Assembly (NCBI GenBank): GCA_005116965.1
Contig: SWDG01000025.1
Coordinates: 16,344 to 80,343, forward strand
From: Nitrospira sp.
GTDB lineage: Bacteria; Nitrospirota; Nitrospiria; Nitrospirales; Nitrospiraceae
DNA: 64,000 bases
Direction of reading: 5' to 3'
Positions 2,550 to 31,265 of the stretch are shown here, in pieces (positions within the stretch are counted from its first letter, which is position 1; every line of letters begins with the position of its first letter). The notes under the pieces were generated by a model, which searched no databases, was not told where the DNA came from, and saw only the letters and a program-made list of their open reading frames with translations. The translations under genes and the position numbers were made by a program.

Positions 2550-3095
2550 ATGGACTGGTCGTTACTCATCGGCCTTCTGACGTTCATCATCTGCACAGGA
2601 GCAGGGATATACTTTTGGCGTGGATTCGTTGATCGACTGAGGAACGACTTCCGGGCTGAGCAGCCCGCTCTGCGCATCACCAACCTCTCGGCGTTCCACG
2701 CCGGAGATGTCATCACACTGACGCCTGACTTGGAGAACGTCGGGCAAGGAGTCGCGTACGATTGCGTGCTTCAGCTCAGCGGATGGGAGGGCAGTTTTTC
2801 GGTCAAAGCCCTGTATCCTCATGGGCCTCGGTATCACAAGCACTCAATCCCCATCGTGCTGGGGCCGGCCACACCGATCCGCGTGAAACCACTCAGCCGG
2901 TGCTATTTGAGATTAGTCTGCCGTGATCGCTGGGAGCAGCCGTACGAATATTGGTATCCCGTGACCCAAGTAGAGAATCTGAACACTCGCCTGTATGACG
3001 TTCACATCAACCTTGCACAACCTGAACTGACTGAGCCGAACCCATCTCTCTGGAAAATATGGAAACTCCTTCGGAAGATTTCTGCCCATGATTGA
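2550..3095 (+). CDS. membrane-anchored protein of unknown function (181 aa)
   Basis: An N-terminal transmembrane helix (about residues 4-24, LLIGLLTFIICTGAGIYFW) is followed by a soluble domain of mostly beta pattern. That domain may be Ig-like: the segment GDVITLTPDLENVGQGVAYDCVLQL resembles a CARDB-type adhesion fold. No enzyme motif is visible. The ATG at 2550 is the first start after the lipocalin, but I see no clear ribosome site. Confidence 0.6.
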   Translation: MDWSLLIGLLTFIICTGAGIYFWRGFVDRLRNDFRAEQPALRITNLSAFHAGDVITLTPDLENVGQGVAYDCVLQLSGWEGSFSVKALYPHGPRYHKHSIPIVLGPATPIRVKPLSRCYLRLVCRDRWEQPYEYWYPVTQVENLNTRLYDVHINLAQPELTEPNPSLWKIWKLLRKISAHD

Positions 3096-3352
3096 CCTGA
3101 CAAGACCGGCATCCTTTCCAGGCGCGGACGACAGTTCCGTAGGGATGGGATCACGCTGGATGGGCAATTCCTGGCCTTCACCGGTTTGAACGCCGAGGAG
3201 CGATACCAGGCCCCCTTGAACCCTTGCATTCTGAATTCCTGAACCGTACCATTTACTCCACCATCACAGGGGATAGCCGTGCTCATGAGGACCCCTGTAA
3301 GACTTCAGCGAGCCGTTCGACTGACACACGTAACCAATGAAGGAGAGCCCCG

Positions 3353-3772
3353 ATGCCACCTACAGTTCAGATCGATCCAATCGTGAAGATCACGAAGACT
3401 GATGAGGAATGGAAGAAACAACTGCCCCCCGCCGCCTATCGTGTCTTGCGGCATGAAGATACAGAGAGAGCATTCGTCAACGCACTGCATGACAACCATG
3501 AGTCAGGGATCTATTACTGCGCCGGCTGTGACTTACCGCTCTTCTCATCCGAGCACAAGTTTGACAGCCGTACCGGTTGGCCCAGCTTCTGGCAGCCGAT
3601 CGATCCACGCGTAATCGAAACTCACACCGATTCCAAATTCTTCATGTCCAGAACGGAAGCCCATTGCGCGCGATGTGAGGGCCACCAGGGCCACGTCTTT
3701 AAAGATGGGCCGAGGCCCACCGGCCTGCGGTACTGTATCAACGGTGTCGCGTTGAAATTCGTGGCCGGCTGA
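3353..3772 (+). CDS. msrB: peptide-methionine (R)-S-oxide reductase MsrB
   Basis: Reduces methionine-R-sulfoxide in damaged proteins. Two CxxC pairs that bind structural zinc are present (CAGC near residue 47 and CARC near residue 101), with the family block RTGWPSFW and the catalytic Cys in RYCING close to the C-terminus. The active site usually reads RYCINS, so the Gly is a mild variant. AAGGAG precedes the ATG by seven bases. At 139 aa it is a single-domain cytosolic form, without an MsrA fusion or signal peptide. Confidence 0.95.
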   Translation: MPPTVQIDPIVKITKTDEEWKKQLPPAAYRVLRHEDTERAFVNALHDNHESGIYYCAGCDLPLFSSEHKFDSRTGWPSFWQPIDPRVIETHTDSKFFMSRTEAHCARCEGHQGHVFKDGPRPTGLRYCINGVALKFVAG

Positions 3773-3919
3773 TCGGTACGACTCATTACCATCTTCCTCT
3801 CGATCACAGGGGTTCCCGCCCACCACAGCGCACACCCTGCCGTGGCTCGAGCCCCACTGGCACTCCGCCGTTCATTCACGGTACAATCCTCCACCACGGA
3901 TCATCAAGGCAACGTTGCG

Positions 3920-5200
3920 ATGTTCTCCCGCATACTACCGTACACATTTCTTGGGCTGGCTCCGCTGCTTCTTTCGTGCAGTGAGTCATCCAGCCTATTC
4001 AGCTCGAAAACATCCCCTTGTTCTCTTTTGACAGTTGCAGACGTGGAACGGGTGCTTGGAGAACCAGTTCAGGAGGGGACCCTGGCTGATCCAACAACCT
4101 GTCTCTTCAAAGCCCACCGGAATGCGGGAAATGCCGTCACGATCCAGCTGGACAAAGCACCTGGTACGGACCGACGGGCATGGTTCAATAAAGAGCGTCT
4201 GCGCCGCGACAGCTATCTTGTTCCAGGCCTGGGCGATGGAGCGGTGCGAATTGACTCCTCTCCGACCCTGTCCCGGCTGACCTTCATGCATAGAGACGCG
4301 TTTGTGACCGTGATCGTCTCTTCGACCCAACAGAAACAACTTGGTGAATCGGTCACCCAATTGAGCAGGACCGCCGCAACCCGATACGGCGCATCCTTGA
4401 CGGCCACGCTCCCTCCCTCCGCCCCACCCTCCATGTCTGACCGTGGAACCCACACTGAGACCGTCGCTCCACCGGCCCCCGTCACGCTCACACAAACACG
4501 TCATGCCCCGTCAGGTACCCAGCTCGGACCAAAGAAAGCGACGTCGTTTGATCCGACGAGCCTGGTTGGAACCTGGCATACGCATCTCACACAAGGGACG
4601 ACCCAGCACGACCTGCTCCTCATCATTCAGCCCAATCTCACGTGGTCACTCTCATCCATGATGCAGTTTGACGGAATTTTGAATGCTGAAGCAGGTCTGT
4701 GGTCACTTGAGCGAGCCAACACGTTCAAGGGCCTTGGATGGAAAGGGACCTACCGCAAGGCGACGTCCAAATCGTTCACGAGTACCGGCAGTGTTCAGGC
4801 GACCTGGACAAGACTGTCGATCGATCAAAACCCCGCGCGCATTCCAGCCGAGCTCTGGAAACTCCGACAGGACGCCACCAGCATACCGGTTTTTCAACTC
4901 AAGACTGTTGATTCTGATCTCGTCGGCCAATGGGAGGGATCCGGTACCTATGCCGGAGGTTCCGCCTCCTTCGTGTGGCTCATCAAACCCTCCGCCGCGA
5001 CTGATCTGCTGATTGTCAATACGCTGCGCGGGACCGTGCACACCAAAGACGGCATCCCACAACTCCAACCTGTTCAAAAGCAGCACCAACGCGTCAGCGT
5101 CATCGCCTTCCATGACCGAGGATTTACCACGGCGGATGGGAAGACCAACCTCCGATGGACCAAGGTTCGTTCTGAACCGACGGAAGACCGTCAACTGTAG
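3920..5200 (+). CDS. large lipoprotein with DUF3558-like N-terminal part
   Basis: The ATG at 3920 gives a signal sequence ending LLLSC, a lipobox. The mature N-terminus has CSLLTVADVERVLGEPV and a later Cys in TTCLFKA, a pattern like the DUF3558/sensor-domain lipoproteins of other bacteria. A Pro/Thr/Ser-rich linker (about residues 165-210) leads to two beta-rich C-terminal units. Both carry a VGTW/VGQW motif (LVGTWHTH and LVGQWEGS), so they are probably duplicated lipocalin-like domains. No catalytic residue can be named. A longer upstream frame is open but lacks export logic. Confidence 0.65.
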   Translation: MFSRILPYTFLGLAPLLLSCSESSSLFSSKTSPCSLLTVADVERVLGEPVQEGTLADPTTCLFKAHRNAGNAVTIQLDKAPGTDRRAWFNKERLRRDSYLVPGLGDGAVRIDSSPTLSRLTFMHRDAFVTVIVSSTQQKQLGESVTQLSRTAATRYGASLTATLPPSAPPSMSDRGTHTETVAPPAPVTLTQTRHAPSGTQLGPKKATSFDPTSLVGTWHTHLTQGTTQHDLLLIIQPNLTWSLSSMMQFDGILNAEAGLWSLERANTFKGLGWKGTYRKATSKSFTSTGSVQATWTRLSIDQNPARIPAELWKLRQDATSIPVFQLKTVDSDLVGQWEGSGTYAGGSASFVWLIKPSAATDLLIVNTLRGTVHTKDGIPQLQPVQKQHQRVSVIAFHDRGFTTADGKTNLRWTKVRSEPTEDRQL

Positions 5201-5246
5201 CGATCCCCTCTTTGGTCGCGTAGCCTTTCGAAAAGGATCCCCTCTC

Positions 5247-6140
5247 ATGGCAGACACAAAAGCTCGCATCGGATTCGTCGGTGTAGGTCGGATGGGGGCC
5301 AATATGGCCAGACGCCTGAAGGATCACGGGTACCGCATCGCGGCAGTTCAGGATCGTCATGCCACCGCATCGCAGTCGCTGGCACTTGAACTGGATTCGG
5401 AAGCAGCCGCGTCACCGGCGCGGGTCGCGGAAATATCCGATATCGTCATCACCGTCGTATCGGACGACGCGGCGATGCGGGACATTTATGCGGAGATGGA
5501 CGCAACCAGCCTGATGGCCCACGCGAAAGATCGACTGTTTATCAACTGTGCGACTCTTACGCCGGCGCTTCACATCGACATCGAACAGGCCGTTGAACGG
5601 CAGGGTGGTGCAGCCCTTGAAGCCTGTATGGCAAGCAGTATCACCCAGGCTCGGCAGGGCACCCTGTATCTCATGTGTGGGGGCAAGCAGAACGTGTTCA
5701 ACCGGGCTCGCCCGGTGCTGAACAGCCTCGGTACGATCGTACGATATATCGGCCCAGCTGGAGAAGCGGCAACAGTGAAAGCGCTCGTGAACATGGTGAT
5801 GAACAGCAATACCGCCGCGCTGGCTGAAGGGTTAGGACTGGGGAAGGCACTGGGAATTGATCTGACTCTCCTGCGCGAGGTATTCAGTCAAACCGGAGCT
5901 GCCTCGCGAGTACTGGAAACAGATGGAGAAGATATGCAGCTCCGTGCGCACGACTGTTACTTTTCAGCAGCCCACGCCGCGAAAGACTCGGCCATCGCGC
6001 TCGACTTGGCCAAAGGAGCCGGCCTCTCCCTACCACTCGCACAGGCAACATTGAACCAATATCGACGATTGATTGAATTGGGCAAAGGTGATCTGGATAA
6101 ATCTGCGATTGCCGAACTGACGTTCCCTGATCGGCTCTGA
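5247..6140 (+). CDS. NAD(P)-dependent beta-hydroxyacid dehydrogenase (HIBADH/GarR family)
   Basis: Oxidises a short 3-hydroxyacid, or in some members reduces a small aldehyde acid; the exact substrate cannot be read. The Rossmann fold starts at once with GFVGVGRMGANMARRL (GxGxxG). The substrate loop and catalytic Lys lie in GEAATVKALVNMVM near residue 175, and the C-terminal helical domain contains KDSAIALDLAKGAG. The start was taken at ATG 5247 behind AAAGGA; the 375-residue frame would include antisense-like sequence inside the preceding gene. At 297 aa it is standard length. Confidence 0.88.
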   Translation: MADTKARIGFVGVGRMGANMARRLKDHGYRIAAVQDRHATASQSLALELDSEAAASPARVAEISDIVITVVSDDAAMRDIYAEMDATSLMAHAKDRLFINCATLTPALHIDIEQAVERQGGAALEACMASSITQARQGTLYLMCGGKQNVFNRARPVLNSLGTIVRYIGPAGEAATVKALVNMVMNSNTAALAEGLGLGKALGIDLTLLREVFSQTGAASRVLETDGEDMQLRAHDCYFSAAHAAKDSAIALDLAKGAGLSLPLAQATLNQYRRLIELGKGDLDKSAIAELTFPDRL

Positions 6141-18794: not shown

Positions 18795-19014
18795 GTAACC
18801 TAGCCCCTTGGAGGATGAATCTGAAGAGCAAACTATAGGTGACGCGACCGTGGAATGTCTACAGGGAGATAGCTGCCTGGCCAGGGAAATTATTAGGGAA
18901 TGCAACGCGCGGTGGCTGGCAGCGAGCGAGTCTACCTAAGGGAAGGAAAAAGATTCTTGCGGTGTGTATCCCATCGTCTCAATAGAAACAGCACTGCCAC
19001 GAGCGAGCTTGCAG

Positions 19015-19091
<77 letters not shown>

Positions 19092-19587
19092 ATTATCCAA
19101 ATGCTGAGTTGGCAATAAAAGACGACCGTTAGCTCTATTACTCAGCACTAAATTCTAGCTAGTGTGAAGGGGAAGGCAGGTCTCCGTCAAGTAGAACGGC
19201 AACGGCTGAGCGTGAGACTTCATTACTTTGATGATTATCGACTCCGAACCGCGAACACATCGATCACATCGGTTACGTCATGGTGAATCGAATTCGATTC
19301 AAGGTGTATCTCTTTAGGTTCACCACCAATCTCCCGTCCTCATGTCACTAAGATGAATTCTGTAAAATGGAACACGCTATATCAGCGCGACTGTCCAGCT
19401 GTTTCGCGCATTGCTGCAAGCACCAGCATTGCTGTTGCCGTCAGTGGCCTACACCTTGCTTATGCAAACAAAACAAGGAGTACGCTCACCAAGCAGAAGA
19501 TGGTGATGCGTCGCAACACCAGCGAGCGTACATCTAAGTGTCGCCGATTCGGTGCATTCGTTAACCAATACAGAAGGAGGTTTTCAC
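19092..19587. other. intergenic region between tRNA-Arg and the accessory zone
   Basis: A plus-strand frame from 19353 crosses this region, but its composition (many Arg, Ser, Thr, His) and its overlap with the well-supported gene at 19588 argue against it. No other signal is seen. Confidence 0.4.
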
Positions 19588-19905
19588 ATGCCACCCATCA
19601 TTACCGTTCCAGCTGCCAACGGAGCGTCGCACACGACAGCGTACAACTTTGTCCCCACCAATGCGCACGGAACCCACCCAGCCATATCAAACATCAGTCA
19701 GTGGAAGGTCACCGTCACAACTGCCATCTCCGGTGGAGGAACATTAAAGACACAAACCACATGGAAGACAGTCCCCATCTCAACATGCCTTGTGACTGGC
19801 TTACCTGCAGACAATGGCTTCTATTACTGTCAGGTAATATATCGAAAATCAGACGGCAGCACATGGGTGGGAACGAGCAATTATTTCAGGTCTCAGCCAT
19901 CGTAA
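19588..19905 (+). CDS. uncharacterised 105-aa beta-rich protein
   Basis: A perfect AGGAGG (19575-19580) stands seven bases before the ATG, so it is probably well expressed. The sequence is Thr/Ser/Gly-rich with alternating hydrophobics, and has two Cys (ISTCLV and YYCQV). That Cys and YYC pattern looks like a single immunoglobulin or fibronectin-type fold with one disulfide. There is no signal peptide. No family is recognised. The IS110 element lies immediately downstream. Confidence 0.6.
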   Translation: MPPIITVPAANGASHTTAYNFVPTNAHGTHPAISNISQWKVTVTTAISGGGTLKTQTTWKTVPISTCLVTGLPADNGFYYCQVIYRKSDGSTWVGTSNYFRSQPS

Positions 19906-19989
19906 GCATTCGGACACAGTCTGCCAGATTGACTACAACATGCACGTTAAGGAAAGCCATATAGCTCAAAGGAGACGGTATGAATTGAG

Positions 19990-20239
19990 TTGCCACAGCG
20001 ATGTGGACTGGGGACAGTGCTCTTCAGGGTAGATAGGTTGCAGGGCGTATGTTGTGTTGAGGCCCCGTCGAGACTGCACACGGCGGGTGATCTCGTAAAG
20101 GAGACTACTCGCCCTGTCTACCGAATGGCCGCCGTGAGGCCCGCACGTGTCCCGTGCGGTGATCTCGAATAGGAGTGTGGAGCCATCCGCCTGACGCATC
20201 TGCCCCGGATTCATCCACTCATACCGAAAGGACTCGACG
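19990..20239 (+). ncRNA. candidate IS110 bridge RNA region
   Basis: The upstream flank of the transposase folds well. GGTAGA (20028-20033) pairs with TCTACC (20117-20122), and directly inside CAGGGCG (20041-20047) pairs with CGCCCTG (20110-20116). A second perfect 7-bp hairpin is CCGCACG (20141-20147) with CGTGCGG (20153-20159). A ten-base motif GGTGATCTCG occurs twice, at 20086-20095 and 20158-20167, each followed within eight bases by AGGAG. IS110-group elements are known to encode a bridge RNA in this position, with one target-binding and one donor-binding loop. The assignment is by position and fold only. Confidence 0.45.
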
Positions 20240-21274
20240 ATGAAACGCTATCTCGGGATCGACCTCCACACCAATAGCTTCACCTGCTGTTATTTGCACG
20301 CCGACGGGCACGAGACGATCCGCACCTGGCCGTTGCAGGGCGGTGGGTTGGAGCAGTTTATCCAAGGCGTGCACGCGGGGGATGAGGTCGCCCTTGAGGC
20401 GACGGGCAACGCCGCCTATTTTTGCAAGACCGTGGAACCGTTTGTCGCGCGCGTCGTGGTGATCGCGCCGTGGCAGTTCGAGGTGATCCGCCGGTCGGTG
20501 AAAAAGACCGACAAGCATGATGCACGGGCCATCGCCCTGTTCTTGTCCAAGGACATGCTGCCCGAAGCCCGTATCAAGAGCGAAGCACACGTGCAGTTGG
20601 CGTCACTCATCACGACACGGGACCAGCTGGTGAAGCTGCGCGTGTCCTTGCTGGGCAAGGTGCACGGCCTGTTCGTGCGCCACGGGTTGAAGGTCAGACG
20701 TGAGGTGCTGACCAGCCAGGCCGGGTTTACGCGGGAAGTGGCTGGGCGTAACTGGAGCCCGCTGGAATGCGCGGAGCTGGCGGTGATCGACGACCAGATG
20801 CAGAGCTTGCACCGGAACATCAAACGGCTGGAAAAAGAGATCGCGGCCTTTGCCAAAACGTTGCCGGGCTATGACAACCTGATCTCCATCAAGGGGATCG
20901 GGCCGCTCTCGGTGGCCGTGATGCTGACGCATATTGGCGCGATCGAAGATTTTAAAAACACCGGTAAGCTGGCCGCCTACTTCGGCATTGTCCCGCGTGT
21001 CAGTCAGTCAAATGAAACAAGCAACAGCGGGCACATCACCAAGCGAGGCAACAAACTGGCCCGCACCACGCTCGTGCAATGCACCCTGATCGCAATCCGG
21101 TACAGCCCGTACCTGCGTGGGTTCTACGAAAGCCTTAAAACACGGCGGGGAACGGGCAAGGCGATCATCGCCACCGCCAGAAAACTGCTCAACACCATCT
21201 TCCACACCCTCAAAAATAACTGGGTGTTCGAAGATTTTCCCAATTTCAAACTTTTAGCTTGCAACCAATCATAG
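20240..21274 (+). CDS. IS110-family transposase, intact
   Basis: A 344-residue DEDD recombinase. The N-terminal RuvC-like domain shows GIDLHTN (Asp near residue 8), the Glu in LEATGNA and KTDKHDARAIA, where the last acidic residues lie. The C-terminal Tnp_20 domain has SIKGIGPLSVAVMLTHIG, the helix-hairpin-helix-like block, and the catalytic-Ser region FGIVPRVSQSNETSNSGHITKRGN. AAAGGA precedes the ATG. No frameshift or stop is present, so it is potentially active. Confidence 0.95.
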   Translation: MKRYLGIDLHTNSFTCCYLHADGHETIRTWPLQGGGLEQFIQGVHAGDEVALEATGNAAYFCKTVEPFVARVVVIAPWQFEVIRRSVKKTDKHDARAIALFLSKDMLPEARIKSEAHVQLASLITTRDQLVKLRVSLLGKVHGLFVRHGLKVRREVLTSQAGFTREVAGRNWSPLECAELAVIDDQMQSLHRNIKRLEKEIAAFAKTLPGYDNLISIKGIGPLSVAVMLTHIGAIEDFKNTGKLAAYFGIVPRVSQSNETSNSGHITKRGNKLARTTLVQCTLIAIRYSPYLRGFYESLKTRRGTGKAIIATARKLLNTIFHTLKNNWVFEDFPNFKLLACNQS

Positions 21275-21282
21275 GAGGCACC

Positions 21283-21621
21283 ATGTTAGAAGATGCAGTG
21301 AGTGACGCACATCGAGTGATACAGGACAGCTATGAGATCGTCCTGGATTCCACGGCTCATGATGTTCGGCGGGTCTGGGTCAGGTTTGGAACCTTGGGAA
21401 AAGAAGCTGAAGAGCATACGTGGGATTTACTCACCGGACCATTTCAGCTCCAAACGGGTCTCACAAAGAAGCAGGTGATAAAGATCTATGACAGTCAACT
21501 TCCGGCCCCCGCCGTCAGGTGCTACTACCAAATGCTGTGTGAAATCGATGACGAGCACGGCGAACATGAGACGCTCATGACAGCTCCAAGATTGCTTACC
21601 GAGACAAATGGGGCGCTGTAA
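21283..21621 (+). CDS. uncharacterised 112-aa protein next to the IS
   Basis: Its ribosome site GGAGG overlaps or abuts the transposase stop, and the ATG lies eight bases after that stop, so readthrough expression from the element is possible. The protein is acidic and soluble, with a beta-strand-rich N-terminal half (SYEIVLDSTAHDVRRVWVRFG) and Cys in RCYYQMLCEI. No family is recognised. Confidence 0.55.
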   Translation: MLEDAVSDAHRVIQDSYEIVLDSTAHDVRRVWVRFGTLGKEAEEHTWDLLTGPFQLQTGLTKKQVIKIYDSQLPAPAVRCYYQMLCEIDDEHGEHETLMTAPRLLTETNGAL

Positions 21622-21681
21622 TTGTCCTATTTCACCGGCACGAGCAGGTTCTATCTGCATACCCAGTGACAGCGGATAGCA

Positions 21682-21722
21682 GAAGGAGGGGGAACGGTTT
21701 TTCGTTGGTGCCGCCCTCCTTC
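21682..21722 (+). other. stem-loop downstream of the small gene
   Basis: GAAGGAGGG (21682-21690) is complementary to CCCTCCTTC (21714-21722). No T-run follows, so termination is possible but not certain. Confidence 0.35.
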
Positions 21723-21956
21723 GCATGTCCTGCACTGCTCCGCTCGATTATTCATCTTGACACCCCGTCGAGAGCGACTAGCCCTTCTGCCTTCTTGCTG
21801 CAGCCGACGTCTTTGGCATTTCCAAAATAGAATCAAAGTCACAGGGACATACACTCTGGCTCTTTGTGAAGCTGACAAAGAGAGAGGTAGTGTGCTAGAA
21901 ACCACCACGTGCGTACGCTCGTCGTGCAATCGCACCTGCTAGACGAAAACGGAATT

Positions 21957-24761
21957 ATGCGAGTCGTAGCACCAGAGCTTCACCTGACGCAGTCAAGTAC
22001 TCCCCCGACTCCACCCGTAGGCCACTCCAGATGGAGAGGCTGTATTCTTCTGATGATGGTGTTGTCTCTGCCGAGCCCCTGGTGCGCACAAGGGCTTGCT
22101 CAAACGGCACCTCCCATTACACCGTCAGGGCTCACTACGCAGGTCGATCTCTCCTCGACTCCACCGACTGGAAGAATGCAGTACGACATCACCGGTGGAA
22201 CCAGAGCAGGTACAAACCTGTTTCACAGCTTCGGCATCTTCAATGTCCCCACAGGCGTCATCGCAAACTTTCTGAACGACACCAGCTTGGATACGACGAC
22301 TATCCTCAGCCGTGTCACCGGGGGACAGACCTCCACGATTTTCGGCACCATTCAAACCAGCGGGTTTGGGCAGGCCAATTTCTTCCTGATGAATCCGGCG
22401 GGTATTGTGGTTGGCCCAACGGCATCGCTGAACGTGGGAGGATCGGTCGCCTTTACGACAGCAGCCTACCTGCGCTTCGCCGACAATGGTCGATTCCATG
22501 CCGTTCCTAATGCAGCGGCAGACGCGCTGCTGTCGACGGCGCCTGTCGCCGCCTACGGGTTCTTGAGTGCCAATCCCGGTACCATCACCATCCAGGGCAG
22601 CGAACTGATTGCGTCAGAGATCTCGTTGGTTGGAAGAAACATCGCCATTGGACCCGACGCTCGGGATAACGGCACGGTCCAACGAGCACAACTCTCCGCA
22701 CCGAACGGCACCATTCGGTTGGCCAGCGGAGTATCCCCCGGAGAATTCGATGCCATCACGCTTCAGTCTGTTCCGAACCTGGACGGAGCTTCATTTACGT
22801 CGTTCGGGTCCATCGTCTTGGCACCAGACTCAACCGTCAATGTCCGCGAGACGAGCACGGTTTCAATTCGGGGAGGCCAATTTCTCCTGAATGTGAGCGA
22901 TGCGACACTCAGCACCGCTGAGATCCCTGAGCCTCCTGGAACTGTTGTGCTCAACAACGCCAGTCGCATGGAATCCGCCACCTTCGGCACTGAGTCTGGC
23001 GCCGGCGTCCACATCATTTCGGAAGAGAGTGTAGCCCTGCGCGCAAATTCCTCGATCGCCGCAAGGACAATGGGCGCTGGAAGCGGGGGACATGTCAGTG
23101 TCACGGCACCCACCATTCTATTGCAGGCCGAATCGAACATCGTGACTGCCACTGGAGGACGCGGTGCCGCAGGAAATGTAGATCTTCAAGGGAATCAGAT
23201 TACCCTCGCGACGAACAGTTCTGTTCTCACAGGCTCACAAGCCGAAGGACGTGGAGGAGACATCACGATTCGAGGACTCGCCGGAACAGAGAGTCACGCA
23301 CAGGATGTAACCCTGTCTGACGCCAGCCGACTCGTGAGTGAAACTCTTGGTGACGGCGTCAATACCCAAGGGCCGGCCGGACAGATATTGATCAGAACGG
23401 AACGACTGAGCCTCAGTGGTGCCAGCCAGCTGAACAGCACCTCGCGCGGCAGCACGGGAGCCGCGGGCAACATTTCAGTCAGGGCGACCGATTCCATGAG
23501 AGTTTCCGGATCCGGCACACAACTCATCAGCAACAGTATGGAGTTTTCGTCCGGTGATGCCGGACACATTTCTGTCAGTACTCCTTTGGCCCTTGTTGAG
23601 AAAGGCGGCACCATCTCCAGCACGACAAGCCTCACCGGAAACGCCGGTCCGATTACGATTACCGCCAACCGCCTTCAGCTGCTGTCTGGCGGAAGAGTGA
23701 CCAGTCGCAGTCTGGTGGAGTTTCCCGAAACGCCCCCGACTGGTTCAGCCGGCACAGTGACGGTCCACGGGCTTACGCATTCCGTTGAATCCATCCAGAT
23801 TGACGGGTCCGGCAGTGGCATCTTCACGGATACGCAAGGGCAAGGCTTAGGCGGCACGATCACGCTTCGCGCGAACACCATTACCCTCGACACAGGCGGT
23901 ACAATCTCCACCGAAACAAGCGGGACCAGTCCCACCGCGACCGGTGGCTCAATCCTCATTCACGCAACAGATCAGGTCTCGCTGGCCAATCAGGCCTCGA
24001 TCAGGGCCGGCAGTACAGGAACAACCGCCGGCAATGCGGGTGACGTCACGCTCAATGCTGGCCATCAATTGGAAGTGCGAGACGGCTCTTCCATCACTAC
24101 AGCTACCGAGTCGCCACAGGCAAATGGAGGCAATATCACCATTCAGGCCATCGACCAGGTCCGGTTCGTGGATAGCACCCTCAGCACCTCAGTTCGTGGC
24201 ACCGACGGCAGCGGCGGGAACATCTTCATCGATCCCAAGGTGGTGGTCTTACAAGGGAGCGAGGTCACTGCGAAGGCCATCGGGGGGGCCGGTGGAAACA
24301 TTGTGTTCGTCACTCCCCTGTTCTTGGCTGACTCTACCAGCGTCGTAAGCGCCTCCTCACAACGCGGCCCCAGTGGCACCGTGACGATTCAATCGCCGAC
24401 ATCAAATTTGAGTAGCGCGGTTGGTCAACTCGTGTCCAAAATTACGCCGCCTCAGATCCTCATACAAAACCGCTGCGTTACGTCGACTCCTGGTGCACAG
24501 AGCACCTTTATCTTCGCTGGACGGGATACCCTCCCCGCCGAACCAGGCGGATGGATCAAGAGCCCAGTCGCCATGAACCACTGGACCGGAGAGAACACGG
24601 AGCATGCCTCTGGCCTCATCGTGCGAAACCGAGGATCCAAGTCATCGCCATCACTGGCTACACAAAAAGACAACGCCACCGTGCTATCGCTCCGACGGCT
24701 GACGCAGCCAGGTTTCTTAGTGCAAACATTTGCAAGCGGCTCCACAGACTGCTCTTCCTAA
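21957..24761 (+). CDS. filamentous haemagglutinin-type exoprotein (TpsA-like)
   Basis: A two-partner-secretion exoprotein. After an extended signal region (ILLMMVLSLPSPW...AQGLAQ) comes the haemagglutination-activity N-terminal domain, with TNLFHSFGIFNVPTG, ANFLNDTS, RVTGGQTSTIFGTIQ and FFLMNPAGIVVGP, the NPxG-like block that defines TpsA proteins. A long beta-helix of Gly/Ser/Thr-rich repeats follows, with QI/VSLANQ-type units, and a Cys-containing tail. At about 934 aa it is small for the family. The start is uncertain (GTG at 21909 or ATG at 21957). No TpsB transporter gene is in the window. Confidence 0.88.
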   Translation: MRVVAPELHLTQSSTPPTPPVGHSRWRGCILLMMVLSLPSPWCAQGLAQTAPPITPSGLTTQVDLSSTPPTGRMQYDITGGTRAGTNLFHSFGIFNVPTGVIANFLNDTSLDTTTILSRVTGGQTSTIFGTIQTSGFGQANFFLMNPAGIVVGPTASLNVGGSVAFTTAAYLRFADNGRFHAVPNAAADALLSTAPVAAYGFLSANPGTITIQGSELIASEISLVGRNIAIGPDARDNGTVQRAQLSAPNGTIRLASGVSPGEFDAITLQSVPNLDGASFTSFGSIVLAPDSTVNVRETSTVSIRGGQFLLNVSDATLSTAEIPEPPGTVVLNNASRMESATFGTESGAGVHIISEESVALRANSSIAARTMGAGSGGHVSVTAPTILLQAESNIVTATGGRGAAGNVDLQGNQITLATNSSVLTGSQAEGRGGDITIRGLAGTESHAQDVTLSDASRLVSETLGDGVNTQGPAGQILIRTERLSLSGASQLNSTSRGSTGAAGNISVRATDSMRVSGSGTQLISNSMEFSSGDAGHISVSTPLALVEKGGTISSTTSLTGNAGPITITANRLQLLSGGRVTSRSLVEFPETPPTGSAGTVTVHGLTHSVESIQIDGSGSGIFTDTQGQGLGGTITLRANTITLDTGGTISTETSGTSPTATGGSILIHATDQVSLANQASIRAGSTGTTAGNAGDVTLNAGHQLEVRDGSSITTATESPQANGGNITIQAIDQVRFVDSTLSTSVRGTDGSGGNIFIDPKVVVLQGSEVTAKAIGGAGGNIVFVTPLFLADSTSVVSASSQRGPSGTVTIQSPTSNLSSAVGQLVSKITPPQILIQNRCVTSTPGAQSTFIFAGRDTLPAEPGGWIKSPVAMNHWTGENTEHASGLIVRNRGSKSSPSLATQKDNATVLSLRRLTQPGFLVQTFASGSTDCSS

Positions 24762-25484
24762 CTGTCCATACTTGAGACACACGCTCTTCACGGTGTGGGG
24801 CGCTCAGATGATGTACGGCGTATCCATTTAGATTCAGTCTGAATCTTTTTCGATTCACATTCCCCTTCGCCACGCGCCCCCAGACAGATACTCCAGGCCA
24901 AACTAAAAACAACGTGATACTCATAACCTACGTATTTTCAACAGGTATCGACGTTTTCCGCCTATTGTCACCTGCGTGGCTCGTCTTTTGCTGATGCTGG
25001 CAAAGAACAGAGCCACTTACCCCTGAAAGTAGGTATGGGTTTGGTAGAGCAGACACATCTTGGACACTGCCATGCGATTCAACGTTCTGAAACCGCGATT
25101 GCTGACATCCACTAGGCCTGACATAGCCGAACGGAAGGATATGGGAACGACCGGGCGAATACGCACCAACAAAAGCACGGAGAGCGGAATTACAACCTAG
25201 TCCAAATGGCCCTATGAAAACAGGATAAATTGGGATACTAAGGCGTGACCATTGATAGAGCCAAAAGATACTGTTGAAACTTCTTAGTTAAAACATTCTT
25301 GAGCAGGCGATAAAGGAAAGTGGAATCATCGTAAAAGGCGCTGTTCAAAAGACGCAACAGAAATACTATCGCGCGTCTCGATGAAGACGCGCGGGAATTT
25401 CGAAATAGACATTTGGTTAAGTCAGATGCTTGGCCATACAAGCAGCGCTGGGAACAGCTCTCCGGGTGAGGAGGTCAGATTCAA
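24762..25484. other. long intergenic region with one perfect hairpin
   Basis: About 720 bases with no convincing gene. The right part is AT-richer than its surroundings. A perfect 9-bp stem CGCGCGTCT/AGACGCGCG (25370-25378, 25385-25393) lies 90 bases before the next gene, without a T-run. Confidence 0.4.
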
Positions 25485-25832
25485 GTGAAAGGTCTGATTG
25501 GGATACTCTTGCTAGTTTTCCTTACGAGCACTCAACCTGCCATAGCAGGATACAGTTCCGGGTATCCAGACGATATACGACTGTGGGCTCAAGCCACACC
25601 AAACTACGCTCCCGATGAACTACTTGTTAGTTTTCAAAATGGTGTGCCGCTGTCACGGATCAATGCAATCAATGGATCGCTCAACACTCAAATCATTTCA
25701 ACATTGCTACCCGGGAGATTGTATTTAATTAAGATCCCAACGGGTAAGACGTTAGAAGAGATTCGACAGGCCTATGCCTCATTGCCCGACGTAAAATCCG
25801 TCGACCTTAACTACTTGATTAGGCCTGAATAG
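25485..25832 (+). CDS. secreted free-standing subtilase-propeptide-like protein
   Basis: GTG start with GAGGAGGT nine bases upstream. A signal peptide (KGLIGILLLVFLTSTQPAIA) is followed by a domain that reads like the N-terminal prodomain of fervidolysin-type subtilases: DELLVSFQNGVPLSRINAING, a middle LYLIKIPTGKTLEEIRQAYASLPDV, and KSVDLNYLIRPE. The protein stops where a protease catalytic domain should begin. In subtilases this domain acts as chaperone and inhibitor, so a periplasmic inhibitor role is inferred. A second protein of similar design follows 28 bases later. Codon use is AT-richer than in the neighbouring genes. Confidence 0.7.
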   Translation: MKGLIGILLLVFLTSTQPAIAGYSSGYPDDIRLWAQATPNYAPDELLVSFQNGVPLSRINAINGSLNTQIISTLLPGRLYLIKIPTGKTLEEIRQAYASLPDVKSVDLNYLIRPE

Positions 25833-25860
25833 AATAACTTTCTCCTAGGGAGCAATAATC

Positions 25861-26406
25861 ATGACCAAGAAGCAGGCTACAAGGCTACTACTTGCCACCA
25901 TTATAGCGACATTCGCTACAGCTACCGCTGATGCAGACCCAAAGAAAATCGCGACCGAACAACCACCATTACAAGCAGAAATAATAGAAGGCGAAATTCT
26001 AGTTGAGTATAAAAATGATACCTTACCTCCGCTAGTTGTTCGTCCTGATGTTAGACCCAACAATATTCCGACACAAATTAGTCTAAACAATACCCCGCCA
26101 CCTGCAGGCCTTCCTCTTGACAATAAAATCCAGACTTCCCACTTCATGTTAAATCAGCTCATGAAGGGCCGGACAGACAAGATGAATGAGGTTGCAAAAG
26201 ATATACAAAAACGACTCCCCATCATGGTTAGATCAAACTATCCAGCACTTGGCGTTCAACTCTGGAAAATAGATAAAGGGAAGATAATGGCGGATGTTAT
26301 TGCGTCCTTGCTGAAAGAGCCTTCCGTTAGAAGAGTTTCACCCAATTACAAAATCTATCCAGAAAATTGCCCTCACTTTGAAATCCAAAGAAAGATAAAA
26401 AGATAA
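25861..26406 (+). CDS. second secreted propeptide-like protein (181 aa)
   Basis: It begins MTKKQATRLLLATIIATFATATADA, a signal peptide, behind AGGGAG. The first strand of a subtilase-type prodomain is visible as GEILVEYKNDTLPP. After a Pro-rich, Lys-rich insert of about 70 residues, the second half resumes with GVQLWKIDKGKIMADVIASLLKEP and SVRRVSPNYKIYPE, the same ending as in its neighbour. Thus the prodomain fold appears split by an insert. There is no catalytic domain. It is probably co-transcribed with the preceding gene and equally AT-rich, suggesting joint acquisition. Confidence 0.62.
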   Translation: MTKKQATRLLLATIIATFATATADADPKKIATEQPPLQAEIIEGEILVEYKNDTLPPLVVRPDVRPNNIPTQISLNNTPPPAGLPLDNKIQTSHFMLNQLMKGRTDKMNEVAKDIQKRLPIMVRSNYPALGVQLWKIDKGKIMADVIASLLKEPSVRRVSPNYKIYPENCPHFEIQRKIKR

Positions 26407-26825
26407 GTTCGAATCTAGACAACACTGGGGTGCGCTAAAGGTTCGATACTGGTGGGCAGAAGTTCAATGGCGAGAACACCTCAACTGCTAACCATGAATA
26501 GAATGTTGGTATTGGAAGCGTTACCTCGCTCCAACCTGCCCTGCTTTTTTTCATGCGGGGCTATCCCCGCACGGCATGAAGGACCTCTCTTCCCCGCATC
26601 TCTTTTCGATTTAGCCTAACGACCGAACCCCTGAACTTTCCTCACAACTTTCTCAACTTTCCAACTGTTCCTCTTCGGCATCGCCGTTGCTCAAGCACTA
26701 AGTCAACAGGCCATGGGCACCAAGACTGAAAAGGAGGTGATGAACGCGTGAACGCCCTGACGCCTGTCAGCCTGGAACTTTAGGACTTCAACTTTCACAC
26801 TTTGAACAATGAGGAGGATTTCATC
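26407..26825. other. intergenic region with hairpin and mini-cistron
   Basis: It contains a 7-bp hairpin TGCGGGG/CCCCGCA (26554-26571) and, at 26731-26740, AAGGAGGTGA, a ten-base perfect complement to the usual 16S 3' end. That site is followed by a GTG at 26748 and only eleven codons (VNALTPVSLEL, stop at 26783). The stretch at 26630-26670 is low-complexity ACTTTC-rich DNA. Confidence 0.5.
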
Positions 26826-27626
26826 ATGCAACCGAGCGCATCACAGGTAGCATCAGGAAATATCGCCCCCATGATCAAGGGGCCAGAGAAAGCTACGAAG
26901 GAGGTCATTGTCCTGGCCGGAGTCGTCCTCTTCCTTGGAGGATTGCTTGCCACAGCGTGGCTCTATAGCCAAACCGGCGACCAGGTAACGGCTTCTCTCG
27001 CCACGGAGGAGGTCGAGCATGCCAGCGTCCCTGGCTTGCTCAAGAAATCCTCAGCTCTTCACCAGACCGGGGCGTCATCCACCCATTCCGCCCAGATCAC
27101 GGCTCCGGTCCTATCGACCCCGGAGATTATTCATGCCGATGTCTACTTCGAAGTCGGGCGGAAGGGATTGACCGACGAAGGGAAAGCTCAACTCACCGCA
27201 CAAGCCGCCATGCTGAAACAACATGAAGACTACGGTGTGCTGATCCAGGGCTATACCGACCAGCAGGGGTCGGTAAGCTACAACAAACAGTTGGGGATGA
27301 AGCGGGCGGACACGGTCAAAGCTGAATTGGTGAATACCGGCATCGCCGAGCACCGAATCAAGACTGTGAGCTTAGGCGAAGAAGGTGTGCTGTGTGTGGA
27401 TAGCAGCGATGTCTGCCGGCACATGAATCGACGGGTGCATCTCGAAGTCCGCAAGATCGGCCAAGAACATATGGTAATGCCATCCGCCCCGACCACTCCG
27501 TCCGATTCGTCCGAGACCAACATCGACCCGTCATCCACCATGGGTGAGGGTAGCACGACGGAAGAGAGCCTTCCTCCCTCATGGTCCGAGCCAGCCCTCA
27601 TTCCTAAGCCTACAAAGGGCAGGTAA
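26826..27626 (+). CDS. OmpA-family protein, single membrane anchor (PdsO-like)
   Basis: The ATG at 26826 has GAGGAGG eight bases upstream. One transmembrane helix (VIVLAGVVLFLGGLLATAWLY, about residues 28-48) leads to a linker and then a C-terminal OmpA peptidoglycan-binding domain: IIHADVYFEVGRKGLTDEG, GYTDQQGSVSYNKQLGMKRADTV and NRRVHLEV. The domain has an inserted Cys pair (CVDSSDVC). A Ser/Thr/Pro-rich tail ends the 266 aa. OmpA-family proteins of this design (PdsO) accompany Gram-negative sortases, and a sortase-like frame lies directly downstream. Confidence 0.8.
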   Translation: MQPSASQVASGNIAPMIKGPEKATKEVIVLAGVVLFLGGLLATAWLYSQTGDQVTASLATEEVEHASVPGLLKKSSALHQTGASSTHSAQITAPVLSTPEIIHADVYFEVGRKGLTDEGKAQLTAQAAMLKQHEDYGVLIQGYTDQQGSVSYNKQLGMKRADTVKAELVNTGIAEHRIKTVSLGEEGVLCVDSSDVCRHMNRRVHLEVRKIGQEHMVMPSAPTTPSDSSETNIDPSSTMGEGSTTEESLPPSWSEPALIPKPTKGR

Positions 27627-27635
27627 TTAATCGGT

Positions 27636-27671
27636 GAGGCTTGGGGACGACCTCAGTCATCCCCAAGCCTC
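27636..27671 (+). terminator. strong stem-loop after the OmpA-like gene
   Basis: A perfect 12-bp stem (27636-27647 with 27660-27671) and a 12-base loop lie ten bases past the stop. No U-tract follows, so it may be a weak or protein-assisted terminator, or an RNA-stabilising structure. Confidence 0.5.
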
Positions 27672-27689
27672 TGCTGCTGTACTCACCCT

Positions 27690-28243
27690 CTCTAATATAA
27701 CCAGACGAGGACATCCTGCTCAACGAATCGCTCCTGGCAGGAAACTGCCGTGCTCTCCAGACCGTCGCGCGCTTGATCGTCACTTCCAAGAGAATCGATC
27801 TGGTCCTATTGAACGGCGCGTATAGCCGCGCGCTCGCCTTCGGCCCTGGCCATGTCGAATCCAGCCTGTTACCCAGTTCAGGCGGCACGACGATCCTCAC
27901 CGGCCATTGCAATACACACTTTCGTTTCTTGAATGAATCGACTCGTGAGGATGAACTCGTGATCCAAACGGCAAGTGGGAACGAACTGCGCTACATGGTG
28001 GAAGAGCGCCGCATCGTGGATTCGCAATCCGGAACCATTACACTCGATCACTCACAGACGAGGCTCCTCCTCGTCACCTGCTACCCGTTTGATACGATGA
28101 TGCCTGGTGGGCCATTGAAGTACATGGTGGTTGCAGAAGCGAGATGGCGACACAAGGATCAGGCCAGTAGAGCATCCCGAACGTTCGCGTCCAAATCGGT
28201 TCACTCTGTGTCTATTGAAGAGCGTGTGCCTACAAACACTTAG
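27690..28243 (+). pseudogene. truncated Gram-negative (class GN) sortase
   Basis: Starting from TTG 27773, the sequence matches the core of proteobacterial GN sortases: LVLLNGAYSRALAFGPGH, ILTGHCNTHFRFL with the catalytic His (residue 45), and LLLVTCYPFD with the catalytic Cys (residue 103). The expected catalytic Arg in GPLRY is Lys (residue 116, GPLKY). The N-terminal membrane anchor and linker are absent: an in-frame TAA lies near 27700, and a Trp-containing fragment like the usual N-terminal linker (RSWQETA) appears in another frame at about 27726. It is either a decayed gene or a short variant; decay is more likely. Confidence 0.6.
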
Positions 28244-28793
28244 TCTCACCATAGGTTTTCGAAATGATTTATTCCTTGCCAGACACGAGGCGTTCCATCA
28301 GAAGCGAGCGGGCCTACGCCTTGACCGATGGAATAGAGACTCTCACAAACCGTTCCCCCCTCAGAAAAGGATACGATTGTGCCTGCGACCAGCCATTTGG
28401 CTCTGGCCTTGAGAAATTGGTCTCTGGATCTTTTCCCCCATCCACTGGAGCCGTCTTTTCTTCTTTATCCCCTTGACAGAGACGAAACCTTGCTCCTGTT
28501 GGTGAGAGCCATCATCCCCAGAAAAGTGTCGAACCTGTGGATAGCCATGGGATTACTAACAAGATCTCCGCTACCAGCGAGGCCTGATTGAGTGATCTCA
28601 AGAAATATTTCTAGGAATATGCAAGAAAGTAAGGAACTTAGATATGTACCACCATTACTGGTGGTATCATCGCATCGTGGCGGATGCCTAAAAAATGGGC
28701 GATTTGATGAATCCACACGCCATTCGCGCTATCTTTCGTAGAATACCGTGACTTGTTCACAATGTTATCCACAGAAGATGTGGAATGAGATTT
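28244..28793. other. intergenic region with DnaA-box-like sites
   Basis: It holds a perfect DnaA box TTATCCACA (28765-28773), a one-mismatch box TTGTTCACA twelve bases before it (28753-28761), and an inverted TGTGGATAG (28536-28544). Between them is an AT-rich stretch (28595-28650) with the palindrome AGAAATATTTCT (28601-28612) and a 7-bp hairpin (28647-28666). No coding frame is convincing. Confidence 0.45.
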
Positions 28794-29285
28794 CTATCTG
28801 TGGCGAGCAGGCCTCGTGGATTTCCATTTCCACGGCGGGATGGGATTAGGCTCGGACCACAGGCCTGTCCCTGCGGCTCTGGCCAGCTCTTCCATATCTT
28901 TCAGGGCTTGATCGCCGGACCCTCCTGGATGCACCCAGGCCAGTCCTTCCTTGACCAGCTCATGGGCCATCTGTCGTCCATCCGGTAGTAGGATATCGAC
29001 GGTCATCCGACCTTGCCGATCCCGCTTCAAGTCTGGCACGACCACTTCACGGTTGGCGATATAGGCAGCTGTGGCACGTTTCGCCTGTTTCCCATAGGGC
29101 TGTTTCAGCTCGGGACAATCCACCCCGCGAAGATACACTATATCCCTTCGGCCTTGATGGTAGATGGTGAGACGATCTCCTTCGTGGACGATCAAGACCC
29201 GCGCGACGAAGTCGGCCTCGGCAAGCGCAGGAGCGATGATGGCCGATACCAGCACCAGGCCAATGGTGATGCAACGCGTCATCAT
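28794..29285 (-). CDS. secreted thermonuclease-family (SNase) nuclease
   Basis: Calcium-dependent staphylococcal-nuclease fold, cutting DNA or RNA. The start was taken at ATG 29285, which gives a signal peptide (MMTRCITIGLVLVSAIIAPALA). The active-site residues are in place: Asp in HEGDRLTI, Arg, Asp and Glu in LRGVDCPEL, and the second Arg in DRQGRMTVDI. The C-terminal SNase helix (AHELVKEGLAWVH) is intact. A longer frame upstream adds 38 residues without signal character. At 163 aa it is standard for bacterial secreted SNases. Confidence 0.88.
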   Translation of the reverse strand: MMTRCITIGLVLVSAIIAPALAEADFVARVLIVHEGDRLTIYHQGRRDIVYLRGVDCPELKQPYGKQAKRATAAYIANREVVVPDLKRDRQGRMTVDILLPDGRQMAHELVKEGLAWVHPGGSGDQALKDMEELARAAGTGLWSEPNPIPPWKWKSTRPARHR

Positions 29286-29673
29286 GACTGCATATGCTAC
29301 CGCCAGCAGCCCATTCGACCAATCATTTCTGAGTTTTACTACAGCGCGGCGTCCCGCTTTGAGTACAGATACAAGATGGCCTTGCGAGGAATGCGTCAAA
29401 CCCTCACGACCCTCCTGTCGGCTGACGGTCCTGCCCTCCCCGAGTGCCCAGGGTAGCTATTCCTGTATACACCTGTTAGGATGTCGCTGTTTCAGTGCGG
29501 AGGGCCTCGCATGAAACACGAATTTCAACGGCCTGTCACCGATGTTGTTCCTGCCGAGAATCTGATCGGAAGTCTGACCTGAGCCGTTTACCAACTACGT
29601 CTTCGGCCCTCTCCTTCCCCTCTGAAGTCCTTCTCGTGTCTCGGACAATGTCATTTTGGAAGGAGGAACCCCC
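29286..29673. other. intergenic region before the RRM gene
   Basis: Divergent promoter region of the nuclease and RRM genes. Short plus-strand frames overlap each other and look random. No hairpin of note. Confidence 0.35.
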
Positions 29674-30006
29674 ATGGGTTCAAAATTGTATGTCGGCGGA
29701 TTGCCCTACTCGGCAACCGAATCTCAACTCACCAGCCTGTTTGCGGAGCACGGCACGGTCGAATCGGCCCGCGTGATCGCGGACAAGTTCACGGGTCAAT
29801 CACGTGGATTCGGCTTCGTTGAAATGTCGACCGCCGAGGAAGCCAAGGCAGCCATCACTGCCCTGAACGGGTCACAGATGGACGGACGGTCATTGACCGT
29901 GAATGAAGCCAAGCCAATGGAGCCACGTTCCGGCGGTGGTGCGGGTGGAGGCGGCTCACGATTCGGTGGAGGTGGTGGTGGTGGGCGCGACCGCAACCGC
30001 TATTAA
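29674..30006 (+). CDS. glycine-rich RRM RNA-binding protein
   Basis: A single RNA-recognition motif with RNP2 (KLYVGGLPY, residues 4-12) and RNP1 (SRGFGFVEM, near residue 44), followed by a Gly-rich, Arg-rich tail (GGGGGGGRDRNRY). The family resembles cyanobacterial cold-induced Rbp proteins and is probably involved in RNA chaperoning under stress. An AGGAGG box lies seven bases before ATG. At 110 aa it is typical. A strong terminator follows. Confidence 0.95.
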   Translation: MGSKLYVGGLPYSATESQLTSLFAEHGTVESARVIADKFTGQSRGFGFVEMSTAEEAKAAITALNGSQMDGRSLTVNEAKPMEPRSGGGAGGGGSRFGGGGGGGRDRNRY

Positions 30007-30034
30007 TCCCGATACACATTCTGCCTGAATACGA

Positions 30035-30070
30035 AAGGGGCGCTTCACTCGAAGCGCCCCTTCAATTCTT
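30035..30070 (+). terminator. terminator of the RRM gene
   Basis: AAGGGGCGCTTC pairs perfectly with GAAGCGCCCCTT (12 bp, loop ACTC), followed by CAATTCTTTC. The left side has only a short A-run, so it works mainly on the plus strand. Confidence 0.85.
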
Positions 30071-30106
30071 TCGGAATGCCGTTTGCGTGGAACCTAACTC
30101 CTACGC

Positions 30107-30451
30107 TTATCCCCACGTACGGTGGACTTCGCTCACCTGCTCACCACCCTCAGTCTTGGCAATCACCCAGACCACATCATCAGGGATGGATACGACTTTG
30201 AGCTTCGCAGCATGCCCATCGGCAGCTTCCCGAAGTTCTTCCACTACACAAACCAGGCTCTCATCATCCCGCGGAATGAGCTTCCCATACTGATTCAGGC
30301 TCGGTTCCCGTGGCCCAGCTGCCTGAGGCCAATAGGACCCGCGATCCGTCTCCGCCAGCGCCTGCGGCTGACCTAGTTCACGCAGCCGAATCAGTGCCTT
30401 GTGGCTGATGCAGAATTCATCATAGCTCCGGTTGATCACGATTCGCTTCAT
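30107..30451 (-). CDS. uncharacterised 114-aa protein
   Basis: It begins MKRIVINRSYDEFCISH after a GAGGGAG box. A middle part DDESLVCVVEELREAADG and the ending VSIPDDVVWVIAKTEGGEQVSEVHRTW form a convincing alpha/beta domain. No membrane segment or signal. Proteins with this opening (strand, then SHKALIRLRELG) look like a conserved hypothetical family, but I cannot name it. The CsbD-like gene lies upstream on the same strand. Confidence 0.65.
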   Translation of the reverse strand: MKRIVINRSYDEFCISHKALIRLRELGQPQALAETDRGSYWPQAAGPREPSLNQYGKLIPRDDESLVCVVEELREAADGHAAKLKVVSIPDDVVWVIAKTEGGEQVSEVHRTWG

Positions 30452-30504
30452 GTTCGCTCCCTCAGAAAATACGGTCGTTTTCCTGCCGCCGAATAACTGT
30501 TCAC

Positions 30505-30747
30505 CTACACCGCCGGGGCTGCATCTTTATATCCGATATAGTTCCCCGTCCAATGCGAGTAGCGACGGTTCGCCCATGTCGCCACCTCATCTTTCTGGAG
30601 CTCCCCATACCGCTTCTGGATGACTGTCTCGAACCTGTAAAGATCTCCTTTAATTTCGATGAGATCAGCCTCCGTGATGTTCACCCACTTGGCCTTGAGC
30701 GGCGTTTTGAGTTGCTCCCAGAATTGCCCGAATTGCTCCTTATTCAT
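30505..30747 (-). CDS. CsbD-like stress protein (80 aa)
   Basis: A small helical protein of the CsbD type: MNKEQFGQFWEQLKTPLKAKW, then TEADLIEIKGDLYRFETVIQKRYG, matching the W-K...DL..I.G....Q..YG pattern. The start was taken at ATG 30747, where AAGGAG lies six bases upstream; the longer frame lacks a site. CsbD family members are general-stress proteins of unknown mechanism. Confidence 0.75.
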   Translation of the reverse strand: MNKEQFGQFWEQLKTPLKAKWVNITEADLIEIKGDLYRFETVIQKRYGELQKDEVATWANRRYSHWTGNYIGYKDAAPAV

Positions 30748-31265
30748 ATGGACTCCTTGGTGAGAAGATGAGGTCTCCACTCCTCTCGACGACAAGACGC
30801 CTCCGGCGTGCTCAGTAGAGAGACGAACGTGGAAACTCAGGCGCAGAAGCGGCGACGACCGGGGAATCAGACGCGCACGAACGGCATGGGAAGGAATCGC
30901 GCGAGGGATAAGATAGTCAGCGATGGCTTAGTACGTCATCCTAATAGCCTACAAGGCAGACTCAGGCTCTGTCAACGGAGACAAAGACGGGAAACACTCG
31001 CCCTTGACCAGGCTCTCATCAGGGCGTAGGGTGAGCACTGTACTCCCCGACCGCCTTCGTTTCGGAGGTGGTGCCCATGGTCTTTCGTCGAACTGAAATC
31101 CAACTGAGCAGAAACGGCACGTGTGGCCTTCTCTTCAGTTCGTTCCTCAGCAATCAGCTTGCCAGATTCCCTTCACCTCCAGTCTTTGTACGCGTGAGCC
31201 CAACGACCCTATTCCGATGTGACACGTCGCGTCCCTGCAATTGTCCAAGATGGTGAGAAGTCGCT
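30748..31265. other. intergenic region, no clear gene
   Basis: Several overlapping short frames with Arg/Ser-rich composition, none with a proper ribosome site. It probably contains the promoter of the CsbD-like gene on one side and of the regulator unit on the other. Confidence 0.35.

Follow-up and report, generated by a model that had tools for sequence, protein, structure and literature searches.

Two adjacent genes in a Nitrospira sp. genome, here called gA and gB, very probably derive from a two-gene subtilase cassette by loss of the protease part. They lie within a window of 64,000 nucleotides, the term by which we refer to the whole stretch of DNA that was analysed. The two genes have separate ancestries, the cassette is present in relatives, and there is no catalytic domain beside gB. 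The pair would show a protease gene reduced to its inhibitor part.

gA (25485..25832, + strand; GTG start, 115 aa) is predicted to encode a secreted standalone subtilase prodomain, and gB (25861..26406, + strand; ATG start, 181 aa) is predicted to encode a secreted prodomain from which the catalytic domain is absent. Each has a hydrophobic N-terminal signal, judged by eye, and a Shine-Dalgarno-like purine run, read from the sequence, lies 8-10 nt upstream of both starts. The 28-nt gap between the genes (25833..25860, + strand) contains a purine-rich, ribosome-binding-like run, and this spacing is operon-like and matches that of the intact cassettes described below. Both reading frames are open, and each is a gene of its own with no protease domain in its product. 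An earlier reading of this DNA, made from the sequence only, had proposed that these neighbouring genes encode a signal followed by a subtilase prodomain and no protease, and had suggested comparison with fervidolysin-type prodomain profiles. Its coordinates were right, and both products score above the curated cut-off (21 bits) of the Pfam family PF22148, Fervidolysin_NPro-like. gA matches with 38.6 bits (E 1.4e-9; residues 36-109 to profile positions 10-81) and gB with 26 bits (E 1.2e-5; residues 110-162 to profile positions 29-81), the gB match covering just the C-terminal two thirds of the profile. The C-terminus of gA lies 5 residues past the conserved N-Y. The same reading had gB end at PNYKIYPE, which is wrong, as 13-14 further residues follow (ending in NCPHFEIQRKIKR) and form an unrelated tail. 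It was right to place a Pro-rich insert inside the gB fold: alignments put this stretch between the first strand and the first helix (26017..26154, + strand, approximate limits), and in pairwise and multiple alignments it is about 35-40 residues longer than its counterpart in type II protease prodomains. The signal of gA has no lipobox-like Cys. In gB an acidic cap residue is lost, S-P-N replacing E-P-N, and the corresponding protease of locus L125 likewise has S-L-N.

The predicted structure of gA has its elements in the order expected for the prodomain fold; that of gB was unusable (mean pLDDT 32). A Foldseek search with the gA model returned fervidolysin, the PC1/3 prodomain and the subtilisin prosegment at E 0.02-0.13, among other ferredoxin-like folds, with nothing at E 0.001 or better. 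A VIA search with gA was not discriminating, giving Z of at most 8.0 with ribosomal protein S6 on top and no subtilase prodomain among the best 50 rows. Sequence searches of solved structures with gA, gB and their profiles gave nothing significant, the best relevant match being the subtilisin-like protease 9rk9 (E 0.71 with gA, 0.99 with the gA profile). Judged from the model, the prodomain family of gA is not decided by the Foldseek fold search alone.

A profile search of 79 genomes of the genus for PF22148 gave 83 hits, spread over 37 genomes. By their positions, 74 belong to 37 pairs, which occur in 30 genomes, and the remaining 9 are single; 36 of the pairs lie outside the window, in 29 of the 78 other genus genomes. 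In the genus pairs a standalone prodomain of about 130 aa, usually with a lipoprotein-like signal, lies directly upstream of a full prodomain-subtilase, typically about 800 aa long. Outside the window, the leading frame of each of the 36 pairs is short, at 57-224 aa, and two of these frames are damaged or truncated by a contig end. An S8 match follows the second prodomain in 35 of these pairs, and the 36th reaches the contig end still in frame. gA and gB share the arrangement by which such cassettes are recognised, with tens of bases at most between a standalone prodomain gene and a downstream gene whose product begins with a prodomain, and are the only pair of the 37 without S8, which is found neither in gB nor in window positions 19000-31000. 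We coined the name type I for the genus cassette of standalone prodomain and subtilase with JDVT-CTERM/MrtJ. In the type I protease that we scanned (L042), PF22148 and PF00082 are joined by a JDVT-CTERM sorting signal, and the sorting protease MrtJ scores above cut-off within 3.5 kb downstream in 25 of the 36 pairs, another 5 being at contig ends and the last 6 lacking it. The window genome, in contrast, has no MrtJ above cut-off (best score 43.6 bits against a cut-off of 75). A two-gene MrtJ/JDVT unit has been described (PMC11980579), and the part of that description available to us mentions no standalone prodomain gene as a further component. A few genus genomes carry a longer subtilase (frames of 969-1081 aa) that has one prodomain and is not accompanied by a standalone gene.

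Standalone prodomains have a fixed C-terminal end. The chain extends past the N-Y by 6 residues in 30 of the 35 distinct standalones, by 5 in three (gA included), by 4 in one and by 12 in one. A PROSITE-like lipobox pattern is present in 29 of the 35, with gA among the 6 that lack it. In one set of 29 type I standalones, every member has Lys as its last residue and retains the Glu and Asn caps. The caps are likewise retained in all 52 rows of type I or single-prodomain proteases, which were not deduplicated by genome. The helix-cap residue numbers come from PMC6993865, and their transfer to these prodomains is our own. Most simply, the standalone prodomain of the cassettes may be viewed as a second, often membrane-bound copy of the inhibitor/chaperone.

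The closest relatives of gA and gB were found beyond the genus. In a family-wide search PF22148 was present in 47 of 175 genomes, and a second cassette type, type II, was found in other genera of the family at loci L124 (genome G430), L125 (G437) and L126 (G458), where a standalone prodomain adjoins a subtilase of 481-494 aa. Identity of gA to the standalone of L125 is 52% (71 aa aligned), to those of L124 and L126 45% and 38%, and to a type I protein of this kind 30%. gB aligns with the protease prodomains of the three loci from the first strand through to the end, with E of about 1e-7 against type II protease prodomains and 0.047 or worse against all others in a 12-sequence set. In a class-wide profile search (269 genomes), strong type II standalone matches occurred only in G458, G430, G000 and G437; type II protease prodomains occurred in the same four and, more weakly, in G111, in which no standalone gene was detected beside the subtilase. 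The type II cassette of L126 is followed by two caspase-like proteins that resemble each other (2771-5685), the first combining PF00656 with an FGE-sulfatase domain. An orphan lipoprotein-like prodomain of 129 aa (PF22148 E 9e-11) was also observed in G464 (L172 4298-4687, - strand), with no subtilase motif in the 9 kb examined around it.

The ancestry of the two genes was analysed with a main tree of 78 prodomain rows, from which duplicates were dropped and the L130 protease row was left out, and with a second tree and AU tests on 31 chosen rows; the prodomain trees rest on 79 alignment columns. In the 78-row tree the type I standalones, the type I protease prodomains and the single-prodomain subtilases form one group each. 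gA falls within the type II standalones (100/98) as sister to the L125 standalone (100/83), and gB falls within the type II protease-prodomain clade (100/98) next to the prodomain of L125; the 31-row tree agrees on both placements. The fork of gB and L125, where long branches meet, has support of 99/71 in the 78-row tree and 98/57 in the 31-row tree. Given only 79 columns and the long gB branch, the exact sister of gB is unsure, and its place on the protease-prodomain side of the tree appears better supported than that sister. gA is, on this phylogeny, an orthologue of the type II standalone partner and comes from an old lineage of standalone prodomains, whose genes as a rule lie before that of a subtilase. 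Because gB groups with the in-cis prodomains of partner subtilases, the simplest reading is that it is a former in-cis prodomain of this kind, the N-terminal remainder of the protease gene.

Two other accounts of the pair's origin have to be weighed against loss of the protease part. The genes are adjacent, have the same orientation and carry the same domain, as would two dedicated inhibitors produced by duplication of one standalone gene. We give duplication almost no credence: a sister relationship of gA and gB is rejected by the AU test (p 0.0014), as is a position of gB within the standalone group (p 0.0023), and gB has the long stretch between strand 1 and helix 1 that is typical of type II protease prodomains. 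The sequence-only suggestion that both could be dedicated inhibitors is not supported in view of the same placement of gB with the in-cis protease prodomains. The other account is that an assembly or sequencing fault conceals an intact subtilase, which we consider highly improbable. Where a catalytic domain would begin there are 395 intergenic bp (26407..26801, no strand assigned) without subtilase similarity, and tblastn with five full subtilases against window positions 19000-31000 found only the prodomain regions above noise and no S8 remnant. The contig (C27, 624 kb) is continuous at gA-gB, and no evidence for an assembly fault was found there. The finding that the earlier reading itself had named as fatal to it, a catalytic domain in an adjacent frame, is not present, and we rule out a frameshifted or displaced one, because the gap to the next gene is too short to hold it in another frame and shows no S8 similarity. 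A scan for deletion scars near the pair found one near-repeat of 15 nt, one of 14 nt and one inverted pair; these were taken as chance, and repeats flanking a deletion were rejected as a candidate. Promoter and terminator scans gave 1 promoter-like site (shuffle mean 3.3) and 5 terminator-like sites (shuffle mean 1.9).

The base composition of the pair differs from that of other window genes. GC content is 45.7% in gA and 41.8% in gB (GC3 of gB 37.9%), compared with 53.9% (sd 2.9; GC3 60.5%) in 41 window ORFs of at least 150 aa, in agreement with the AT-richness relative to neighbours noted from the sequence. A two-partner-secretion (TPS) exoprotein gene (21909..24761, + strand; PF05860 E 7.2e-31) ends 723 bp upstream of gA, and its product is 38.7% identical over 945 aa to the TPS protein of L125. 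The variable region containing these genes is bounded by a gene for an OmpA-domain protein (26802..27626, + strand), identified by profile match and orthologue comparison, and it also contains an IS110-type transposase gene (20240-21274). Orthologues of the OmpA gene (at least 57% identity) are present in 8 congeners, and gA, gB and the TPS gene lie beside none of the 8. No relative of gB was found among the 78 other genus genomes (79 searched), and neither gA nor gB was found in GTDB genome contigs by a short-pattern scan able to catch close relatives only. A phage or plasmid origin was rejected, gA having no match in phage and plasmid records (tblastn) or in viral contigs; PADLOC gave no match for gA, gB or the TPS gene, and PHROGs none for gA or gB.

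Three of the five type II loci, those of the window, L125 and L170, have neighbouring TPS genes; the other two are L124 and L126. Such genes are scarce, with 2 in the window genome, 5 in G437 and 2 in G111, and the single TPS matches of G430 and G458 are on contigs other than those of their cassettes. Gene order around the TPS gene differs between type II loci, and the linkage with a subtilase outside the window comes from G437 and G111, of one genus, which leaves at most two independent cases. In Bordetella the TPS protein FHA is processed by SphB1, a protease of subtilisin type (PMC6070651), which is comparable in that a subtilase is tied to a TPS exoprotein, as TPS genes flank the type II subtilases of L125 and L170 and the window pair. 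It differs in being an autotransporter, whereas in the window there is a gene neighbourhood only and no subtilase left, the tblastn search of 19000-31000 showing no active subtilase beside the TPS gene. By analogy with SphB1, processing of the TPS exoprotein may have been a task of the lost protease, a guess from neighbourhood. Directly before TPS or TPS-like exoprotein genes we also observed small Cys-rich lipoprotein-like genes in three genomes (L125 8237-8527, L170 2656-3003, L177 9027-9545), of which the L125 product has no Pfam match.

The intact cassette would encode an exported, usually lipoprotein-like standalone prodomain from its first gene and a subtilase with its own prodomain from its second; gA would be the surviving first product in a soluble form, and gB would have arisen when the second gene lost its catalytic domain just past the prodomain. 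Both would still be exported and, like other subtilase prodomains, which bind the protease face with the C-terminal tail in the active site (PMC6993865), might bind the face of a subtilase with the C-terminal strand in the active-site groove, mimicking a cleaved product. A protease elsewhere in the same genome is one conceivable partner, with gA and gB acting in trans as chaperones or inhibitors. An established case is that of Aeromonas sobria, in which ORF2, a separate gene product, is the external chaperone/inhibitor of the propeptide-deficient ASP, its C-terminal end lying at the active site (PMC5638518), and a split pair also exists within the family, at L127 of G309. There a kexin-like subtilase with a P-domain, a lipoprotein-like start and no PF22148 (4429-6708) is followed after 6 bp by a 212-aa lipoprotein-like protein with weak PF22148 (E 2e-4), a split layout like that of ASP/ORF2. 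In the window genome this arrangement is very unlikely. A profile search found just two S8 hits besides the pair and neither fits, which leaves the earlier suggestion of chaperones for a protease elsewhere with no candidate; at 99.2% completeness in 27 contigs, the assembly could have missed a gene, but this is unlikely. The genome search for a subtilase without its own prodomain, proposed in the sequence-only reading, did yield a protein without PF22148 on contig C4 (291 aa, PatA/mycosin-like), but it has no apparent export signal. The other hit, a 415-aa frame on contig C1, has its own N-terminal region and matches S8 positions 51-189 only. It ends beside a transposase-like frame of 263 aa on the opposite strand (L002 571-2610 / L138 5372-7411). 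The translated stretch beyond shows no GTS motif on the strand of the subtilase frame, which looks to have been cut by an insertion before the catalytic serine. The C4 subtilase gene (L001 1441-2316) adjoins a thioredoxin-like frame and is possibly part of a peptide-modification cluster.

Since no matching protease was found in the genome, the most likely present role would be inhibition of subtilases from outside, above all the active cassette proteases of relatives, and we tentatively favour retention of gA and gB as inhibitors of this kind, a reading whose chance we put close to even. A foreign target is not a given, since a propeptide may act selectively on the protease to which it belongs (PMC10580911). 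It is also quite possible, at somewhat less than an even chance, that the pair has the same origin and is a functionless, decaying remnant, which arrived horizontally, lost its protease and has open frames only because the loss was recent. The low GC of both genes, the absence of the pair from the same place in the 8 congeners with the flanking OmpA gene, the failure to find gB in other genus genomes or GTDB contigs, the lack of a cognate protease and the IS110 transposase in the same region are all in keeping with a remnant; the restriction of gB to one of 79 genus genomes, with alien composition and in a variable region, is as expected for a passing insertion. Against decay, neither frame has a stop or frameshift, start signals and putative export signals are kept in both, and the branches are no longer than in relatives that still have the protease. 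The gA branch (0.35) is the shortest of the four type II standalones, the other three having 0.47, 0.53 and 0.86, and that of gB (1.0) compares with 0.79-1.45 in four type II protease prodomains. To judge from frames and branch lengths there is no sign of decay, and these two features are the basis on which present function is suggested, though a recent loss would show the same. A more specific proposal, which we regard as rather doubtful, casts the two genes as an orphan immunity pair. Their products would be secreted antiproteases, gA derived from the standalone prodomain and gB from the in-cis prodomain of a rival's cassette, and would block the secreted subtilase of relatives and shield the neighbouring TPS exoprotein from it. 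The parallel would be with orphan immunity genes that outlive their toxin.

As candidate inhibitors of outside subtilases, gA and gB may be compared with I9-type standalone inhibitors (MEROPS), such as yeast proteinase B inhibitor 2, Pleurotus POIA1, Arabidopsis SPI-1, Toxoplasma MIC5 and Plasmodium SUB1-ProM, which like them are small, exported or separate, protease-free and of the prodomain fold; the gene for SUB1-ProM likewise adjoins subtilase genes (PMC6993865). These inhibitors are eukaryotic and have a known target, whereas gA and gB are bacterial and known from genes alone, and gB comes from a protease's own prodomain. The ASP/ORF2 system is closer in being a bacterial operon with a separate protein in the propeptide role (PMC5638518), but ORF2 has its protease beside it and gA and gB do not. 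A further difference is that the intact cassette proteases of the family keep their own prodomain, the standalone copy being a second one. In the full-text literature, with subscription journals mostly outside coverage, we found no account of such standalone prodomain/subtilase cassettes or of a pair like gA-gB. Standalone propeptide inhibitors and external chaperones are already known; a subtilase gene reduced to the prodomain part, alongside a standalone prodomain, would be new. The intact cassettes are notable in themselves, since a separate, usually lipoprotein-like prodomain accompanies a subtilase that already has one, both in 29 of the 78 other genus genomes and in other genera. This raises the question of whether a membrane-bound spare prodomain keeps an exported protease silent in the periplasm until surface sorting, and the window genome offers a natural protease-minus version of the cassette system. 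Among the type I cassettes, G031:C15 and G075:C14 carry tandem copies, with MrtJ copies that are short or have internal stops beside intact ones.
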